Part shown: positions 26,541 through 51,599 of the stretch, piece by piece
Layout of the letters: each line of letters begins with the position of its first letter
Position numbering within the stretch: position 1 is the stretch's first letter
Assembly: GCA_013178165.1 (NCBI GenBank)
Contig: JABLXG010000004.1
Coordinates: forward strand, 186,001 to 250,000
Reading direction: 5' to 3'
DNA: 64,000 nt
Source: Anaerolineae bacterium
Lineage (GTDB): Bacteria > Chloroflexota > Anaerolineae > Aggregatilineales > Ch27
The notes under the pieces: model-generated
What the model was told of the DNA's origin: nothing
Database searches by the model: none
Seen by the model: only the letters and a program-made list of their open reading frames with translations
Made by a program: the position numbers and the translations under genes

Positions 26541-27197
26541 ATGAGCGAGCGTTTTGACCAGTTCATCGCGCATCTGGCGGAGGCGGAAGTCGCCGCGGAT
26601 GCCTGTAACCAGTACGCCTATGCTGACGGCTTCAACGCTGTCCGCCGGGAGAACCTACGCCTGTACCTGCACCAGATGGCGGCCCGCGATCCGAAGGTAC
26701 TGCTGGTGGGGGAGGCGCCCGGCTACCAGGGTTGCCGTCGCTCCGGCCTGAATTTCACCAGCGACCATCTGATGCTTAACCCACCGCCTGGCGTGCCGAT
26801 CCTGGGCGCGGCGGCGGGTTACCGCATGTCGCCAGAATATGACCGCCCGCGCAAAGAGCCGAGCGCGGCGATCGTCTGGGAGGCTATCGCCCGCACCGGC
26901 CTCCTGCCCGTGATCTTCGCCGCGTATCCGTTTCATCCCTTTCAGGCGGGCAAGCCGCTTTCCAACCGTGCCCCACGCGCGGATGAACTGGCGCAGGGAC
27001 GTATCTTTCTGGCGGAGATGCTGGGCCTATTCGATTTCACGATAGTGCTGGCGGTGGGCAATATAGCCGAGCGATCGCTTTCCGCGCTGGGCGTGGACTT
27101 CATCAAGCTGCGCCACCCGTCGCATGGCGGCAAGGCGGCGTTTATGGCTGGCTTTGCGGCGGTGGCCCGGCAGGTGGGTAAGGAGCATGACCGATGA
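26541..27197 (+). CDS. Uracil-DNA glycosylase superfamily protein
   Basis: The 218-residue protein has motif [17 protein letters not shown], followed by LNFTSD, and a C-terminal RHPSHGG corresponding to the HPS-type motif II that inserts into the DNA helix. This points to excision of uracil or related bases from DNA. No four-cysteine iron-sulfur ligand set, as in family 4 or 5 enzymes, is seen, so the subfamily is open. ATG 26541 is preferred; the longer frame begins in a non-conserved region. Its stop overlaps the thiolase ATG by 4 bases, which is odd for a DNA repair gene inside a fatty-acid operon. Confidence 0.8.
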
Positions 27198-28378
27198 GAG
27201 ATGCGGTGATTGTGGCGCTGACACGGACGGCGGTAGGCCGCGCCAGGAAGGGCGCAACCCGCAACACCCGTCCCGATGATCTGGCGGCGGCGGTGATCCG
27301 CGAACTGCTGCGCCAGACGGAAGGGCGGCTTGACCCGGCGCTGATCGATGATCTGGTACTGGGCTGCGCCTTCCCGGAAGGTCCGCAAGGGCTGAACATT
27401 GCTCGCGTGGTGGGCATCCTGGTCGGGTTGCCGGTGAGCGTCCCGGCGCAGACGATCAACCGCTTCTGCGCCAGTGGTCTGCAGGCCATCGCCAGCGCGG
27501 CGGAGCGGATCATCACCGGCGGCGCGGATGTGATCGTTGCCGGTGGGGTGGAATCGATGAGCGCGGTACCGATGGCCGGTTTTAGGCCCAGCCCTCACCT
27601 GAAGCTGGTGGAGGAGCACCCGGAAGCCTACATCAGCATGGGCCTGACAGCGGAGCGCGTGGCCGAGGAATACCGCGTGACCCGCGAGGAGCAGGATGCG
27701 TTTGCCTACGACAGCCACCGCAAGGCAGTCGCCGCCCAGGCAGCCGGCAAATTCGCGGCGGAGATCGTGCCCATCGAACTTGAGGAAGTCACCGTCGGGC
27801 CGGACGGCCGTTTGCAACGCCAGCGGATGGTCTTTGACCGCGACGAGCATCCCCGCCCGGATACCTCTCTGGAAGCTCTGGCGGCGCTCAAGCCGGTCTT
27901 CAGGGAGGGGGGCACGGTCACGGCGGGCAATTCGTCGCCGCTGAGCGATGGCGCAGCGGGGGTGATCATCATGGAGGCCGGGATGGCCGCCCGGCTGGGC
28001 CTGACGCCGCTGGCGCGCTTCGTGGCCTTCGATGTGATCGGGGTGCGTCCGGAGGTGATGGGCATCGGGCCGGTGGAAGCGGCGCCGCGCGCCCTCAGGC
28101 GAGCCGGGCTGACCCTGGCTGACCTCGACCTGATCGAGCTAAACGAAGCCTTTGCCGCGCAGAGTGTGGCCGTCATCCGCGAGCTGGGGCTGGACCCGGC
28201 AATCGTCAATGTCAACGGCGGCGCAATTGCCCTGGGGCATCCGCTGGGCGCAACCGGGGCCAAGCTGACGGTTCAACTGCTGCATGAACTGCGACGGCGC
28301 GGCGGCAGGTACGGCCTGGTCACCATGTGTATCGGCGGCGGGATGGGTGCTGCGGGTATCTTTGAGTGCCTGAACTGA
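27194..28378 (+). CDS. fadA: Acetyl-CoA C-acyltransferase (thiolase)
   Basis: Thiolase cleaves 3-oxoacyl-CoA to acetyl-CoA and a shortened acyl-CoA, the last step of beta-oxidation. The nucleophilic Cys is in [13 protein letters not shown] (about residue 92), the His in [18 protein letters not shown] and the second Cys in [13 protein letters not shown]. The length of 394 residues is normal. It overlaps the glycosylase gene and closes the cluster that begins with the TetR regulator. Confidence 0.95.
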
Positions 28379-28514: not shown

Positions 28515-28850
28515 ATGCGCGACCGCGACCGATTGTGGATCACGCTGGCGATCTGGGTGATCTTTGGCGCCATCACGATCATGTTCTTCGCTATTGCCCT
28601 TGGCCCGGCTTCGAAGCCGCTTGGCCAGGATACGATCTTTGCCATTGTTGCCGCCCTGGCAGCGGCGGCAACGCTTTCCACAGCGGCGGTCTGGGGGCGG
28701 CTGGGGAACACTGGCGAAGGGAGCCGGGAAACGCAGGACAGCGGCAAGCTGAAGCGGCCTGACCCGGCACGCCTTGCCCGGCTGATCGAGAGCCTGGACG
28801 ATGATGAGATTGCTGAGCTGGAAACGTTGCTTAAGATGCAGGAACGCTAG
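28515..28850 (+). CDS. Small two-helix membrane protein, paralog 1 of 4
   Basis: The 111-residue protein has two membrane helices (residues about 8-28 and 38-58), a short cytoplasmic linker and a C-terminal helix with the shared motif RLARLIESLDDDEIAELETLL. The following three genes encode proteins of the same plan. ATG 28515 has AAAAGGA 7 bases upstream; an in-frame ATG six codons earlier is possible. Family not recognised. Placed 136 bases after fadA, it is probably transcribed separately. Confidence 0.75.
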   Translation: MRDRDRLWITLAIWVIFGAITIMFFAIALGPASKPLGQDTIFAIVAALAAAATLSTAAVWGRLGNTGEGSRETQDSGKLKRPDPARLARLIESLDDDEIAELETLLKMQER

Positions 28851-28898
28851 TGCGGTCATGTTCTCTGAAGCTTGGTGGCAGGGCCACGGGAGAAAATA

Positions 28899-29252
28899 AT
28901 GGATGACCGATATCGGTTCTTATCGACGGGTGTTGTGTGGACTGCCTACGCTACCGTCTTGATCACCCTGTTCATCGCTCTGGTGGCCGGGCAGCCGCCC
29001 GTAAATGAGACGTTGATGATCATGCTGGGGGTGTTTGTGCTGTTTCTGACATCTGTCGCCGGGATGGCGACAGCGACTATCTGGCGCGCTGGCGGGCGGC
29101 GAGCGGCTGCCAGTCCCTATGTACAGCAGGAAGCGGGCAAGGCCAAGCGCGATGTCTCCGACCGGATCGGGCGGCTGATTGAAGCGCTTGACGAGGACGA
29201 GATCATCGAGTTAGAAACGCTGCTGGCGGTTCGGCACGATGAACGACGTTGA
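28899..29252 (+). CDS. Small two-helix membrane protein, paralog 2 of 4
   Basis: The 117-residue protein repeats the plan of the preceding gene: two membrane helices, a linker AGKAKRDVSDR and the C-terminal RIGRLIEALDEDEIIELETLL. ATG 28899 has GGGAGA about 7 bases upstream. The loop between the helices carries PPVNET, which would lie outside if the N-terminus is inside. Confidence 0.75.
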   Translation: MDDRYRFLSTGVVWTAYATVLITLFIALVAGQPPVNETLMIMLGVFVLFLTSVAGMATATIWRAGGRRAAASPYVQQEAGKAKRDVSDRIGRLIEALDEDEIIELETLLAVRHDERR

Positions 29253-29277
29253 GCGGAGACAGGTCAGGAGGTAGCCC

Positions 29278-29613
29278 ATGCGCGACGTGCTGCGCACGGG
29301 GGTGACGGCAGTGATCTGGGTGGTTTTTACCATGTTCATGATCGCCCAGTTCGCCATGGCTAGCGAGACACCAGTCCCGCTCTACTACTTCGTGGCCATG
29401 GCGACGACGGGCGCGCTGGCGATTCTGGCTTTCATGCTGACGGTTCGCGTCTGGCGGCGGGAGGAACCAGAAACCCGGCGGCTGGCAACTACTAAAGCCA
29501 AGCGGGGCAATCTGGCCGTCCGCCTGGAGCGGCTGGCTGAGGAACTGGACGAGGACGACCTGATCGAGCTGGAGACGCTGATCCGGATGCGCGGGCAGGA
29601 ACATTCCGGTTAG
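29278..29613 (+). CDS. Small two-helix membrane protein, paralog 3 of 4
   Basis: The 111-residue protein has two helices, a WRREEPE linker, the Lys/Arg patch TKAKRGN and the terminal RLERLAEELDEDDLIELETLI. It begins 25 bases after paralog 2 with GGAGG upstream (AGGTCAGGAGG). The C-terminal helix is the most conserved part of the four proteins. Confidence 0.75.
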   Translation: MRDVLRTGVTAVIWVVFTMFMIAQFAMASETPVPLYYFVAMATTGALAILAFMLTVRVWRREEPETRRLATTKAKRGNLAVRLERLAEELDEDDLIELETLIRMRGQEHSG

Positions 29614-29667
29614 CGATGCATCGTTGCGGCAGGGAGTGACAGCTATTCTGACTGGCAGCGGGGAGCT

Positions 29668-30015
29668 ATGAGCGATCAGCGCACATTCTGGACGGCCATC
29701 GTGACCATGGTGATCTGGGTTGCGATGACGGTAATCTCGATCATCTTCATGACGCTTGAGGATGTTACCGCGCTCGGCGCGGCGGCGTTTGTGATTATTA
29801 TGGCCGGGGTGGCTATCGGCGGTACTATTGCCATCTGGACGGGCGAGACCGAATCCGCACGGCAGCCCGGCGGGATGCGCGGTGATACCCGCAAGACCAA
29901 GCGCGGCGACCCGGAGCGTATTGCCCGCCTGATCGAGCAACTGGACGGCGACCAGATGGTGGAACTGGAGACCCTGTTGATGGCCCGGCGGGATGATGCG
30001 CTGGACGACCGGTAG
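29668..30015 (+). CDS. Small two-helix membrane protein, paralog 4 of 4
   Basis: The 115-residue protein has two helices, then TKRGDPERIARLIEQLDGDQ and MVELETLLMARRDD. It shares the motif but has Gly and Gln where the others have acidic residues (LDGDQ instead of LDEDE). It begins 54 bases after paralog 3, and a sugar-phosphate isomerase-type gene follows 72 bases later. Confidence 0.75.
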   Translation: MSDQRTFWTAIVTMVIWVAMTVISIIFMTLEDVTALGAAAFVIIMAGVAIGGTIAIWTGETESARQPGGMRGDTRKTKRGDPERIARLIEQLDGDQMVELETLLMARRDDALDDR

Positions 30016-30087: not shown

Positions 30088-31128
30088 ATGAGCAAGACGT
30101 TGCTTGAACAGGAGATACACGAGCAGCCAGAGGCGCTGGCCCGCCTGCTGGCCGCTGAAAGCGATCACATTGCCCATCTTGCCGGTGTCATCCGGCAGGC
30201 CCAGCCACCGTTTGTGCTGATCGTGGCGCGTGGATCATCGGATAACGCGGCGGTTTACGGCAAGTACGCGCTGGGAATCTTCGCCGGGTTGCCGGTGGCC
30301 CTGGCCGCGCCGTCGATCACGACCTACTATGGCCGGATGCCTCGTGTCCGCGGCGCGCTGGTGATCGGCGTATCCCAGAGCGGGCAGGGCGAAGACGTGC
30401 GCATGGTTGTCGACCAGGCGCGGGCGCAGGGCGCCCTGACGCTGGCGGTGACCAACGATCCCGAATCGCCGCTGGCGAAGACCGCTGAGCATTGCATCGG
30501 CCTGCATGTCGGCCCGGAAAAGAGCGTGGCGGCTACCAAGACGTACACCGCTCAACTGACGGTCATGGCGATGCTGGCCTCCCATATCGCCGATGACGCC
30601 GGGCTGAAGCATGACCTGGCCGGATTGCCGGCATGGGTCAGCCAGACGCTTCTGCTGGCGCAGGACGCCCCGGCGCGGGCGGAGCGTTACCGCTACATGA
30701 CGCGCTGTGTCACCCTGGGGCGTGGCTTCAACTACGCGACCGCGTTTGAATTGGCGCTTAAGATCAAGGAACTGACGTACATCGGGACTACGCCATACAG
30801 CCCGGCGGATTTCCGCCATGGCCCGATGGCTCAGGTGGATGAGGGCTTTCCGGTGCTGGCGATCGCCCCGGATGGCGCGGTGCTGGGCGATGTGCTGGAT
30901 TTGATACGCGAGCTACGGGAGCGCCAGGCCGAACTGATCGTGATCTCCAACCGGGAGGAAGCGCTGGCCCTGGCGCAGACTCCGCTGCCGATTCCGGCTA
31001 TCCCGGAGTGGCTCTCCCCCATCGTAGCGACCATTCCGGGGCAGTTACTGGCCTTTGGCCTCAGCCGGGCCAAAGGCTACGATGTCGACCACCCGCGTCT
31101 GTTGCGCAAGGTGACCAGCACCCGCTGA
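30088..31128 (+). CDS. SIS-domain sugar-phosphate isomerase/deaminase, NagB-II/GlmS-C-like
   Basis: The 346-residue protein has two SIS domains. The first shows ARGSSDNAAVYGKYALG and SQSGQGEDVRM, the second SPADFRHGPMAQVDEG. This matches the isomerase half of GlmS and the stand-alone NagB-II deaminases that convert glucosamine 6-phosphate and fructose 6-phosphate. No glutaminase domain is present, so it does not use glutamine on its own. ATG 30088 has AGAGAGG upstream. It ends in an intrinsic terminator. Confidence 0.85.
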   Translation: MSKTLLEQEIHEQPEALARLLAAESDHIAHLAGVIRQAQPPFVLIVARGSSDNAAVYGKYALGIFAGLPVALAAPSITTYYGRMPRVRGALVIGVSQSGQGEDVRMVVDQARAQGALTLAVTNDPESPLAKTAEHCIGLHVGPEKSVAATKTYTAQLTVMAMLASHIADDAGLKHDLAGLPAWVSQTLLLAQDAPARAERYRYMTRCVTLGRGFNYATAFELALKIKELTYIGTTPYSPADFRHGPMAQVDEGFPVLAIAPDGAVLGDVLDLIRELRERQAELIVISNREEALALAQTPLPIPAIPEWLSPIVATIPGQLLAFGLSRAKGYDVDHPRLLRKVTSTR

Positions 31129-34790: not shown

Positions 34791-35899
34791 GCGGCTTGCT
34801 ATCCCTGTCGCGGCGGCGAGCTATCCTACGCCGGACGATGCACGCGCTGCAGGGCGTTTTCGCCCGCGCCGAGGTGCGCGGGGTGGAGAACATTCCCCCG
34901 CGTGGCCCGCTGCTGATCCTGTTCAACCACCTTTCCACGCTCGACGGGCCGTTGGTGATGGCGAACATGCCGGGCGAGATTGAACTGGTCGGGCCGGGCG
35001 ACTTCCCCATGACCGCGGCGGGGCAACTGGTGATCCGCGCTTACGGGATCACGTTGATCAACCGGGGACGCGCCGATCGGGGTAGCCTGCGGGCTGTGAT
35101 CGATCACCTGCGGGCCGGTCGTATGGTGGCCATGGCTCCTGATGGTGGGACGTGGGAGAAGGGGATCACGGATGTCAAGGATGGCGCAGCGTACCTCTCC
35201 CAGCTCACCCAGACGCCGATACTGCCGGTGGGACTGGGCGGCCTGTATCGCGTGCCGGTGCCCGGTTTGGCAGCGTTGCTGAGCCGCCCGCGGATCACGA
35301 TCACCTTCGGGGAGGTCATGCCGCCGGTGCCGCCCAGCGCTGACCGCCGCCACCGTGAAGCCGATCTCCGGGCCGCGTCGCTGGCGATCATGCAGCGCAT
35401 CTACGATCTCCTGCCACCGGAAGATCGCGCCCGTTATGACGCCTGGGGACAAGCCATCTACGACCTGCGTCTGGAATTTGTCGCTGAAAATGGGGCGCCG
35501 ATCGTGTACAATGGCCCGCCGTTACCCGACCTGAACGCGCTGGGTGAATTCCTGGCCAAGCCGAATCTCTTCCGTCCCATGTGGCAGAATGCCCGTCTGG
35601 TGGTCGACCCCTTCCGGGAGTCCCGCTTCTTCCCGGCGATGGAGGTGCGGCTGGCCGCCCGTGACCTGTACAGGACACTGACGACCGGGACTTTTGACGT
35701 TTACCTGCAGTATCGGCTGGGGAACGAGCGGGCAACGGCGGCGCTGGCGGGCCTGCAGGCCGTACGTGATGAAGTCTGTGAATGGGCGCTGCAGCGCGGG
35801 GCGCGGCTGCGTCTGACGCCGGTGATCCGCCTGCCGGAAGAGCACAATGTGCAGCCTAACCTGCATCCTTCCGGCGTCGGGGGTGTTGTAGAGGGGTAG
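34787..35899 (+). CDS. PlsC-type 1-acylglycerol-phosphate acyltransferase, copy 1
   Basis: The 370-residue protein has the PlsC acyltransferase motifs: NHLSTLDG (HX4D catalytic motif, about residue 47), INRGRADRGSL and APDGGTW. A long C-terminal extension from about residue 240 (PDLNALGEFLAKPNLFRPMW) is shared with the next gene and is not part of the usual acyltransferase fold. It probably acts on lysophosphatidate or a related glycerolipid at the membrane, though no clear membrane helix is seen. It is coupled to glycerate kinase. Confidence 0.85.
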   Translation: MSGLLSLSRRRAILRRTMHALQGVFARAEVRGVENIPPRGPLLILFNHLSTLDGPLVMANMPGEIELVGPGDFPMTAAGQLVIRAYGITLINRGRADRGSLRAVIDHLRAGRMVAMAPDGGTWEKGITDVKDGAAYLSQLTQTPILPVGLGGLYRVPVPGLAALLSRPRITITFGEVMPPVPPSADRRHREADLRAASLAIMQRIYDLLPPEDRARYDAWGQAIYDLRLEFVAENGAPIVYNGPPLPDLNALGEFLAKPNLFRPMWQNARLVVDPFRESRFFPAMEVRLAARDLYRTLTTGTFDVYLQYRLGNERATAALAGLQAVRDEVCEWALQRGARLRLTPVIRLPEEHNVQPNLHPSGVGGVVEG

Positions 35900-36024: not shown

Positions 36025-37170
36025 TTGGCGGATTCACCACTGGTTACGTCGATCTTCGACTACAGAACGGAACTCATCGATCTTGGCACGCTGGGCAAAG
36101 TGCGCGTCCGGCTGCCGATGGTCAATCCGTTACGCCTGCGTCGTCGTATTCTGCATGGTCTGGCGCATACCTTTCATGACCTGATGACCCGCACCGAGGT
36201 CTACGGGCAGGAGAACATCCCGGCCCGCGGCCCGGTGCTGATTCTGCCCAACCACCTCTCCAACCTGGATGGCATGCTGGTACTGGCCTACTACCCGCGC
36301 CAGATCGAGATGGTCGGCCCCGGCGACTTCAAGATGATTACGCTCAAAGACTGGTTGCTGCGCGCCTATGGCGTGACGCCGATCAATCGCGGGCGAGCGG
36401 ACGCAGCCAGCCTGCGCAATCTGGTCACCCATCTGCGTTCCGGGCGCGACCTGCTCATGTTCCCCGATGGTGGGATGTGGGAGAAGCGGCGTTTTGTGGC
36501 CAAAGAAGGGGCCGCCTACCTCTCCCAGCTCACCGGCGCACCGATCCTGCCTGTTGGCCTCAGCGGGACATACCTCAAGACAATCGATGCCTTCACCGGG
36601 CGTATGCCGCGCCTGACGTTGCGCTTCGGGGAGTTGATGCCGCCCGTGCCGCCCAGCCGGGATCGCCGCATGCGCAACAGTGACCTGGATGCTGCTTCCG
36701 CTGAGATTATGGCCCGTATCTGGGACCTGCTGGAGCCGGAAGAGCAGGCCCGTTACCGGCGCTGGGCGCGGGAAGTCTACCGCCTGCAGATCGACTTCCG
36801 TTGGGCCGCGACTGATGAATTGCTGCCTTATGACGGTCCGGCGTTGCCGGATATGAGCGCGCTGGCGGAGTTTATGGCCAAGCCCAATCTCTTCCGCCCG
36901 ATGTGGGAGAATGCCCGGCTGAATATCGATCCGTTCCGGCAGGCGCGTTTCTTTGGCCCGCTGGAGTTGCGTTTTGCTGCTCGCGACCTGGGTGCATTGC
37001 TGCAGGGTGAGTACGACCGCTACCTGCCATACCGCCTGGGCGACGAGGCCGCGCTGCAGGTCAATGCGGCGCTGGAGGCCCTGCGGACAACAGTTAGCGA
37101 GTGGGCGATGGCGCATGACGCACTGGTACGCCTGGCACCGATATGCAGCGATCCGGAGGAGCAGGGCTGA
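36025..37170 (+). CDS. PlsC-type acyltransferase, copy 2
   Basis: The protein is a paralog of the previous one. It has NHLSNLDG, INRGRADAASL and FPDGGMWEK, then the same C-terminal extension (PDMSALAEFMAKPNLFRPMW, then ENARLNIDPFRQARFF). A TTG at 36025 with AGGGAGA upstream gives 381 residues and the N-terminus ADSPLVTSIFDYR. A longer frame from ATG 35962 lacks a good ribosome site. It may supply the second acyl transfer of glycerolipid synthesis. Two copies in a row suggest distinct substrates or positions. Confidence 0.82.
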   Translation: MADSPLVTSIFDYRTELIDLGTLGKVRVRLPMVNPLRLRRRILHGLAHTFHDLMTRTEVYGQENIPARGPVLILPNHLSNLDGMLVLAYYPRQIEMVGPGDFKMITLKDWLLRAYGVTPINRGRADAASLRNLVTHLRSGRDLLMFPDGGMWEKRRFVAKEGAAYLSQLTGAPILPVGLSGTYLKTIDAFTGRMPRLTLRFGELMPPVPPSRDRRMRNSDLDAASAEIMARIWDLLEPEEQARYRRWAREVYRLQIDFRWAATDELLPYDGPALPDMSALAEFMAKPNLFRPMWENARLNIDPFRQARFFGPLELRFAARDLGALLQGEYDRYLPYRLGDEAALQVNAALEALRTTVSEWAMAHDALVRLAPICSDPEEQG

Positions 37171-49442: not shown

Positions 49443-50490
49443 CGATCTGCCGCCGGTGACGCTGTTCTTTGTGGGCGGCGTGGGCGCTGGCGGGATGGAA
49501 CCGGAACTGATCGCCCGCAGCGGGATCGTCTGGCAACGGGTGGTGTACATCCAGGGCGGACCGATCCATGGGGTCAGCCCGGCGCGGCTGGCGGTCAGCG
49601 CGGCGAAGCTGGCGGTGGGGTTTATCCAGGCACTGGGGCTGGTGATGCGCTGGCGACCGGAGCGGGTCTTCCTGACCGGTGGTTGGGCCAGCCTGCCGGT
49701 CGCCCTGGCGGGCTGGCTGTGGCGCGTACCGGTCTATGCCTTTGTGCCGGATATCGAGCCAGGGCTGACGCTCCGGGTGGCCAGCCGCTTCGCCCGCCGG
49801 GTAGCGGCGACTTCCGCCGAGTCCGCCCGTTACTTCCGGGCGGGGCAGGTGGTGGAAACCGGTTACCCGTTGCGGCGGAGCGTGCTGGGAGCTACGCGAG
49901 CGGCGGCTGTGACCCACTTCCAGCTGGACAAGGGACGGCGGACGTTGCTGGTCTTCGGCGGGAGCAGCGGCGCGCGCAGCATCAACCGGGCGTTGCTGGC
50001 CATTCTGCCTGACCTGCTGGCGGATGAAAACTTGCAGGTGCTGCACATTAGCGGCAAACTCGATTGGCCGGAAGTCAGCGCGGCCCGGGAGCGTTTAGCG
50101 CAGGCAGCGCAGAAGCGTTATCATGCCTATGCTTATTTGCATGAGGATATGGGGCTGGCGCTGGCGGCGGCTGACCTGGTGGTAAGCCGGGCAGGGGCCA
50201 GTACGCTGGGGGAGTTCCCGCAGTTTGGCCTGCCAGCGATCCTGGTGCCGTATCCGCATGCCTGGCGTTACCAGAAGGTCAATGCGGACTATCTGACATC
50301 GCGGGGGGCGGCGATCTGGCTGGCCGACGATCAACTGGCTGAGGCGTTGTATCCGGCGATCCGGCGCCTGCTGGACGATCCGGCGGCGCTGGCGATGATG
50401 GGGGAAAAAGCGCGGCAACTGGCCCGCCCGGAAGGCGCCCGCGCGATTGCCCGCCTGCTGGTGAGGGCATGCGAAGTGGAGGGGCGATGA
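49357..50490 (+). CDS. murG: MurG-type N-acetylglucosaminyltransferase
   Basis: MurG adds GlcNAc to lipid I to make lipid II on the inner side of the membrane. The 377-residue GT-B protein has the first Gly-rich loop SAGGTGGGVYPA, the acceptor-side VFLTGGWASLPVALAG, VFGGSSGARSINRAL and the UDP-binding SRAGASTLGEFPQFGLPAILVPYP. In typical MurG the first loop reads GGTGGHxxPA; here Gly13 replaces that His. The gene overlaps ftsW by 86 bases and the next gene by 4. No other lipid II synthase is in the window. Confidence 0.9.
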   Translation: MRILISAGGTGGGVYPAFAVAEALQQGADDLPPVTLFFVGGVGAGGMEPELIARSGIVWQRVVYIQGGPIHGVSPARLAVSAAKLAVGFIQALGLVMRWRPERVFLTGGWASLPVALAGWLWRVPVYAFVPDIEPGLTLRVASRFARRVAATSAESARYFRAGQVVETGYPLRRSVLGATRAAAVTHFQLDKGRRTLLVFGGSSGARSINRALLAILPDLLADENLQVLHISGKLDWPEVSAARERLAQAAQKRYHAYAYLHEDMGLALAAADLVVSRAGASTLGEFPQFGLPAILVPYPHAWRYQKVNADYLTSRGAAIWLADDQLAEALYPAIRRLLDDPAALAMMGEKARQLARPEGARAIARLLVRACEVEGR

Positions 50491-51020
50491 TACAACTGTC
50501 CACGGTTCTGACAGGCATGATCATCATGTTCGGCATCATCGGTTTTTCGCGCGGGTGGACCAAGGAGATCATCGCCTCAACCGGCATTGTGCTGGCGCTG
50601 TTCACCATAGAGCAATTCAAAGCTGTCTTCTTGGAGCCGCTGACCGCTGGCGCTGACCCGGCGCAGAAGTTCTATTTTTACGCGGCTATCCTGCTGATCA
50701 TCACTTTTTTCGCTTATCAAACGCCGGGACGCTTTGAGCGACGCACCCGTCCCCGGAGAGGCCTGCGTGAAGGCGGTCTTCAGGAGAGCCTGCTGGGGGG
50801 TGTGCTGGGGGCCTTCAACGGGTATTTGGTGGCCGGCTCCCTGTGGTACTACATGCGTGTGCTGGGTTACCCCCTCAATCCGAATATCCCGGCTCCCTAT
50901 GTGGGCACGGTCAGCGAGGCCATGCAGTACAGCCTGCCGCTGGACTGGCTGCTGGAGGGCAATCTGCTGACGTTGCTGGTTGTGATCCTGTTTCTGTTCG
51001 TGATTATTGTGCTGATCTAA
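50487..51020 (+). CDS. CvpA-like membrane protein, copy 1
   Basis: The 177-residue protein has four hydrophobic segments. It starts with GFSRGWTKEIIASTGIVLAL, the pattern of CvpA-type proteins. A basic loop (RFERRTRPRRGLRE) and a conserved LLGGVLGAFNGYL segment lie in the middle. It ends in a long hydrophobic helix LLTLLVVILFLFVIIVLI. ATG 50487 overlaps the murG stop (ATGA) with GGAGGGG upstream, so it is coupled to murG. A second copy follows. I know of no assigned role for these in the dcw cluster. Confidence 0.75.
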   Translation: MIQLSTVLTGMIIMFGIIGFSRGWTKEIIASTGIVLALFTIEQFKAVFLEPLTAGADPAQKFYFYAAILLIITFFAYQTPGRFERRTRPRRGLREGGLQESLLGGVLGAFNGYLVAGSLWYYMRVLGYPLNPNIPAPYVGTVSEAMQYSLPLDWLLEGNLLTLLVVILFLFVIIVLI

Positions 51021-51059: not shown

Positions 51060-51599
51060 ATGGTCCAACTGGGCTACTTTCTCTGGGCAATGGTGGCTCT
51101 GTTCGCGGTGATCGGATTCATCCGCGGTTCGACCCGCGAGATGATCGCCATGGCCGGGATCGTGCTGGGACTGTTTGTGCTTGAGCAGCTCGGCGATGTG
51201 ATTCTGACTCCGCTGATTGGCAGCGCCCCCCTGGCCCAGCAGTTCTATGTGTATGCTGGCATCCTCACCGTGATCACACTGTTCGCTTATGAGACCCCGG
51301 CACGCTTTGAGCGCGGCGAGCGGGCAGAACGCTCCGGACACGACGCCCGCGAGGGCCTGCAGGAGGGTCTTCTGGGGGCGACGATCGGCGGCGTCAACGC
51401 CTATCTCTTCTTCGGGTCGCTGTGGTACTACATGGACGTGCTGCACTATCCACTCAGTCCCTCGATCATGGCCCCGCCGCTGAACTCGGCCAGCGCCCAG
51501 TTTGTCAACCAGTTGCCGCTGGTGTTCCTGCTGGAAGGCAACCTGCTCACGCTGCTGGTCATTGTCCTGTTCCTGTTTGTAGTCGTTGTGCTGGTCTGA
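51060..51599 (+). CDS. CvpA-like membrane protein, copy 2
   Basis: The 179-residue protein is a paralog of the previous one. It shares GFIRGSTREMIAMAGIVLGL, a charged loop (RFERGERAERSGHD), LQEGLLGATIGGVNAYLFFG and the C-terminal LLEGNLLTLLVIVLFLFVVV. Overall spacing and membrane segments match. It lies 40 bases after copy 1 and ends 4 bases before murC, so it belongs to the dcw transcript. Function is unknown. CvpA homologs elsewhere affect colicin production and envelope stress survival. Confidence 0.75.
   Translation: MVQLGYFLWAMVALFAVIGFIRGSTREMIAMAGIVLGLFVLEQLGDVILTPLIGSAPLAQQFYVYAGILTVITLFAYETPARFERGERAERSGHDAREGLQEGLLGATIGGVNAYLFFGSLWYYMDVLHYPLSPSIMAPPLNSASAQFVNQLPLVFLLEGNLLTLLVIVLFLFVVVVLV

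Follow-up and report, generated by a model that had tools for sequence, protein, structure and literature searches.

What do four neighbouring genes do whose small membrane products share one tail and differ in their membrane parts? The question is raised by a locus in a 64,000-nucleotide stretch of DNA (the window), part of a 491-kb contig of an Anaerolineae bacterium of the order Aggregatilineales. Four consecutive same-strand open reading frames, here called P1 to P4, occupy positions 28515-30015 (+) of the window between the genes for a thiolase and a SIS-domain protein (Table 1).

The four-gene array and its products

The genes are separated by gaps of 48 (P1/P2), 25 (P2/P3) and 54 bp (P3/P4). 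Further in-frame starts lie upstream of P1 at 28413 and 28452, and the homologs agree with the start at 28515. The preliminary description had seen here four consecutive genes for two-helix proteins of 111-117 residues with a shared tail motif, a reading borne out by the open reading frames and by homology. When P1 was used as a query against its own genome, it retrieved P2 (E 1e-13), P4 (E 7e-12) and P3 (E 9e-11) and gave no other match. A profile built from the tails only found P1-P4 at E 2e-16 to 8e-14, with the next places in that genome at E 0.06 or worse, and the four are the sole family members found there. The window also holds tandem Colicin_V/CvpA-like membrane protein genes (50487-51020 and 51060-51599) in a cell-division/peptidoglycan cluster, the second of them below the Pfam cut-off, and adjacent tandem acyltransferase-family (PF01553) genes (34838-35899 and 36025-37170).

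Table 1. Positions of the array, its tail segments, the replaced block and the flanking genes in the window.
Feature	Position	Strand	Basis
P1, 111-aa two-helix membrane protein	28515-28850	+	ORF call, homology to P2-P4
P2, 117-aa paralog	28899-29252	+	ORF call, homology; other membrane half in same-genus G001
P3, 111-aa paralog	29278-29613	+	orthologs in G001 and G003
P4, 115-aa paralog	29668-30015	+	orthologs in G001, G002 and G003
P1 tail (KxKR and acidic leucine motif)	28746-28847	+	tail-only profile, E 2e-16
P2 tail motif	29139-29249	+	tail-only profile; 95% identical in G001, membrane half ~30%
P3 tail motif	29494-29607	+	tail-only profile
P4 tail motif	29893-30012	+	tail-only profile
Replaced block relative to G001	28800-29147		covers the later half of the P1 tail codons, the spacer and the membrane half of P2
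SIS-domain protein, downstream neighbour	30088-31128	+	Pfam and locus comparison
Thiolase, upstream neighbour	27194-28378	+	Pfam and locus comparison

In each protein a short N-terminal tail leads into a pair of hydrophobic helices with a short connecting loop; a stretch rich in K and R follows, and then the C-terminal tail. The tails follow the consensus KxKR-x4-RxxRLxxxLDxDExxELExLL, in which K-x-KR, R, RL, E, LD, D and ELETL are identical in all four. Mean pairwise identity rises from 25% in the part ahead of KxKR to 60% between that motif and the C-terminus, so the near-constant tail on differing membrane parts that had been noted earlier holds up. P1-P4 carry the family signature: T..IW within helix 1, T...W where helix 2 ends, and KxKR followed by a RxxRLxxxLDxDExxELExLL-like tail. 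The loop between the helices is almost free of K/R, and 7-10 K/R residues fall within the 40 residues past helix 2, a distribution that fits a hairpin with both ends predicted to lie inside the cell (N-in/C-in). In the AlphaFold models of P1 and P4, two long helices are followed by a tail that is also helical; confidence is low (pLDDT 69 and 64; tails ~55-67), and the models are too weak to suggest more than a hairpin with a helical tail. For the C-terminal helix of the preliminary description, these weak models agree with the helical character of the tail; a single long helix appears in the P4 model only, and the P1 tail is modelled as two helices with a turn (H84-92 and H96-110).

Assignment of P1-P4 to a known family was rejected, since searches of Pfam and NCBIfam gave no match over the curated cut-offs, and those of PHROGs, PADLOC, PDB sequences and PDB folds returned weak matches, none of them convincing. 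The motif did not turn out to be a well-described domain, and the earlier statement that it has no named family stands. The profile search with the C-termini that had been proposed retrieved almost exclusively family members in relatives, the rest being noise from E ~0.01 upward, and gave no tail fused to another kind of protein. The open-access full-text literature offered nothing relevant to the hairpin family; DUF4013, a neighbour discussed below, appears there in one paper, on the genetics of cotton fibre.

Distribution and mosaic evolution of the family

The hairpin family was found in 85 of 154 Aggregatilineales genomes, as single copies or often as arrays of two to five (copy number 1 to 6), and ~45% of the order's genomes are without it. 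Elsewhere in the class and phylum it is all but missing: a sample of the class yielded a single weak match from beyond the order, and a sample of the phylum yielded none. Many relatives carry one copy per genome (for example the g7 genomes and the four gene-bearing genomes of genus g11), which indicates that a hairpin protein can act without paralogs.

Within the bacterial family of the window genome (f1), we compared the window genome itself (G000) with G001 of the same genus, G003 of another genus, and G002. G001 and G003 likewise have a four-gene array ahead of their SIS gene. P2, P3 and P4 are colinear with their orthologs in G003, each being paired by the tree with the second, third or fourth gene, respectively, and P4 groups with a G002 copy too. 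For the membrane part of P1, the nearest relatives after G001 are copies from bacterial family f4 and the first gene of G003. Between G000 and G001, dN/dS is 0.26 for P1, 0.20 for P3 and 0.10 for P4, and by these ratios the three genes are under purifying selection. Random local duplication, which the preliminary description had allowed for, does not describe the array, which is kept in relatives with paralog identity and order retained across genera. The G002 array is damaged, with one gene apparently lacking its first helix: at L044:7184-7640 a 67-aa two-helix ORF overlaps an ORF that has the second helix and tail only, reflecting either a deletion or an assembly error.

The locus DNA of G000 and G001 is ~90% identical, except for a short intergenic stretch before P1 and a block that runs from within the codons of the P1 tail to those of the P2 tail. 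Identity in this block is ~36-62% and returns to ~94% at the P2 KxKR codons. The P2 proteins accordingly share ~0.3 of their residues in the membrane half and 0.95 in the tail, and dS is 1.40 in the membrane half versus 0.21 in the tail, which marks this as replacement by a diverged allele and not as relaxed selection. Two G001 contigs break at the P1/P2 junction with a 111-bp exact overlap, so that a mixed population is possible. An independent replacement was found in the single-copy gene of g11, which belongs to bacterial family f8, and there too the switch falls at the KxKR codons: DNA identity is ~93% in the upstream gene, 50-80% in the membrane half and ~90% from the KxKR codons on, while the DNA past the gene is not homologous. 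The g11 counterparts of the P2 identities given above for the membrane half and tail are ~0.6 versus 0.93-1.00, and third-position differences at unchanged residues are 0.51-0.61 versus 0.15-0.27. Judged from these comparisons, the family is modular, its membrane half having been swapped at least twice, in different bacterial families, with the tail kept. This mosaic structure and the DUF4013 link described below are what the present analysis adds to the preliminary description.

The tail is also found on proteins of other shapes. In G271 (contig C28, L094:7290-8653) two tandem proteins of 213 and 231 aa, apparently with four helices and without a Pfam match, carry the same kind of KxKR and leucine tail. 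Arrays of genus g21, part of bacterial family f2, end with a variant whose two helices are set apart by roughly 50-60 extracytoplasmic residues (L055:8034-8582, with counterparts in G298, G351, G343, G345, G348, G350 and G353).

A proposed adaptor role and its alternatives

Among 94 members, identity between paralogs of one genome versus the whole order is 0.25 versus 0.24 for membrane parts and 0.53 versus 0.36 for tails. When genome labels were permuted, tails were more alike within than between genomes in f4 (p=0.036), g21 (p=0.004) and the other f2 genomes (p=0.0005), all uncorrected for four tests, but not in f1 (p=0.45); membrane parts gave no significant within-genome excess in the clade sets. 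A partner shared by the tails within a cell would predict the excess seen in three of the four sets. Gene conversion could account for part of the likeness in some arrays, as the tail third-position difference is low in G348 and in some G331 and G329 pairs. Pure conversion was rejected, since paralogs differ on average as much at third positions of the tail (0.40) as of the membrane part (0.44), so that selection rather than conversion appears to keep most tails alike.

A constant tail on interchangeable membrane parts is most readily accounted for by two separate jobs and therefore favors a role as adaptor or membrane anchor, the reading that we tentatively prefer while holding it somewhat short of probable. 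In this scheme, P1-P4 would be small N-in/C-in hairpins whose variable membrane half recognises a partner or site in the membrane. The conserved tail, with its basic KxKR collar and the acidic leucine-rich helical segment after it, would lie in the cytoplasm and dock a cytosolic partner common to the paralogs of a cell, and several paralogs might thus place that one partner at several membrane partners. We count in favor of the adaptor role that the same kind of tail occurs on the apparently four-helix proteins of G271 and on the long-loop variant of g21. Also in its favor are the contrast in identity between tails and membrane parts, the two replacements at the KxKR codons, the within-genome excess of three clade sets, the retained identity and order of P2-P4 in G003, the purifying selection on P1, P3 and P4, and the DUF4013 neighbour in f4 described below. 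Counted against it are neighbours that depend on the clade, the f1 tails that lack a within-genome excess, the share of tail likeness that gene conversion could explain, and the occurrence of DUF4013 in family-free genomes and unlinked in f1.

The preliminary description had offered a choice between a hetero-oligomer and a set of subunits for related partners. The second gains from the shared tail and swapped membrane half; the first is not needed and is weakened by the single-copy genomes. As subunits of one hetero-oligomeric membrane complex, P1-P4 would bring their tails together in a shared cytoplasmic bundle, and the tight co-directional array, the gene order that is stable across genera and the several g21 arrays that end with the same long-loop member are all consistent with such a complex. 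However, copy number falls to one in many relatives, and replacement of the P2 membrane half between neighbours that are ~90% identical would be hard to accommodate in an obligate, interlocked assembly. We consider a hetero-oligomer unlikely.

No universal partner is visible among the neighbouring genes, as the neighbour varies by clade: SIS in f1, DUF4013 in f4 and a VanW/PG-binding protein in g21. The SIS gene lies directly 3' of the array in all four array-bearing f1 genomes, and the thiolase gene adjoins it in G000 and G001 but not in G002 or G003. The SIS gene was rejected as a functional partner because most other families of the order have it without linkage to the hairpin genes. The VanW/PG-binding protein is encoded upstream in g21, its place being taken by a penicillin-binding protein in G350. 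The strongest neighbour link of the family is DUF4013, whose gene lies directly upstream in 15 of 17 f4 genomes, some of these neighbours having been recognised by sequence likeness, without a profile match of their own. In a further f4 genome (G020) the hairpin gene and DUF4013 sit at facing contig ends, consistent with a 16th adjacency, and in G025 and G328 a DUF4013 gene lies directly downstream too. The f4 genomes counted have just 1-3 DUF4013 genes each.

This adjacency, with genes for a Zn ABC transporter, FeoAB or Fur near several f4 loci and Zn ABC genes often preceding the DUF4013/hairpin pair, would suit hairpins that are accessory or regulatory subunits of the DUF4013 membrane protein, maybe in metal uptake. 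Yet DUF4013 is unlinked to the family in f1, f8 and most of f2. Its genes are frequent across the order irrespective of the family and occur in 15 of 19 genomes that lack the hairpins, so the presence of DUF4013 was rejected as a predictor of the family; conversely, G033 has the family and no DUF4013. In f1, DUF4013 genes, often paired, stand just after Zn ABC transporter-like genes (L124, L125, L126 and L127), with the hairpin family elsewhere. The metal link is therefore that of DUF4013, and a role of the hairpin family in metal uptake was rejected. We regard the accessory role as rather improbable, and it is likely to be true at most in f4.

The recurrent exchange of membrane halves over a retained tail, together with variable copy number, also resembles polymorphic immunity loci. 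The hairpins might then be exclusion or immunity proteins, directed at phage or bacteriocins, whose membrane half diversifies by allelic replacement on a tail that serves as a common signalling or anchoring end, and one f2 member is weakly similar to the two-helix effector domain SLATT_1. That similarity is below the cut-off, PADLOC gave no defence-family match above noise, and no defence, mobile or toxin genes were recognised beside the arrays, which hold a stable chromosomal position by housekeeping genes and keep paralog orthology across genera. This explanation is quite improbable. The array might instead have arisen by tandem duplication of a small membrane protein that the cell can do without, one with no special role and with tails alike by gene conversion. 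This idea can draw on the varying copy number, the many genomes without the family and the low tail divergence in some arrays, but it is slightly less probable still and already disfavoured given dN/dS of 0.10-0.26 for P1, P3 and P4, orthologous identity kept across genera and tails that are on average about as diverged at third positions as the membrane parts.

Returning to the adaptor role, a doubtful extension of it is that the membrane halves are, across the whole lineage, interchangeable targeting cassettes: the tail DNA would double as a recombination joint, at which the membrane half is swapped, the cytosolic link kept and the docking site rewired. If the adaptor role is correct, a whole Chloroflexota order would have a private adaptor family that assigns partner choice and docking to separate modules, each open to exchange, and DUF4013, a widespread membrane family with no assigned function, would gain a candidate partner. 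The family would also provide a natural experiment on module swapping in membrane proteins.

Comparison with known systems

Phage-shock proteins of the PspB/PspC type are small membrane proteins with a cytoplasmic leucine-rich helical segment, a likeness to the hairpin family that we take as a lead only: no Psp family was matched in Pfam or NCBIfam, and no pspA-like neighbour was recognised. SLATT and other two-helix effectors (PF18181) of nucleotide-signalling defence likewise combine a two-helix hairpin with cytoplasmic C-terminal helices. The best SLATT score came from one distant f2 member (19.9 bits against a cut-off of 26.3, E 8e-4). No protein of the window matches the SLATT models of Pfam or PADLOC, PADLOC giving noise only, and no nucleotide cyclase/SMODS, nucleotidyltransferase or reverse transcriptase gene was recognised beside the f1, f4, f8 and f2 loci, where most neighbours were assessed by visual inspection of the first residues of their proteins. 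DUF4013 (PF13197), a membrane protein whose gene immediately precedes the hairpin gene in most f4 genomes, is a neighbour and no homolog; it is ~210-260 aa long and has its own profile, which the hairpin proteins do not match. Like the tail described here, the SHOCT domain (PF09851) is a short helical segment at the C-terminus of small proteins, which are often membrane proteins. Its consensus is unlike that of the hairpin tail; PF09851 is not matched by P1-P4 at E up to 1, and for 30 members it does not figure in the 25 families matched most often. P1-P4 thus belong to an undescribed family that is confined essentially to one order, while proteins of their general kind, small membrane hairpins that bear a soluble tail, are familiar.
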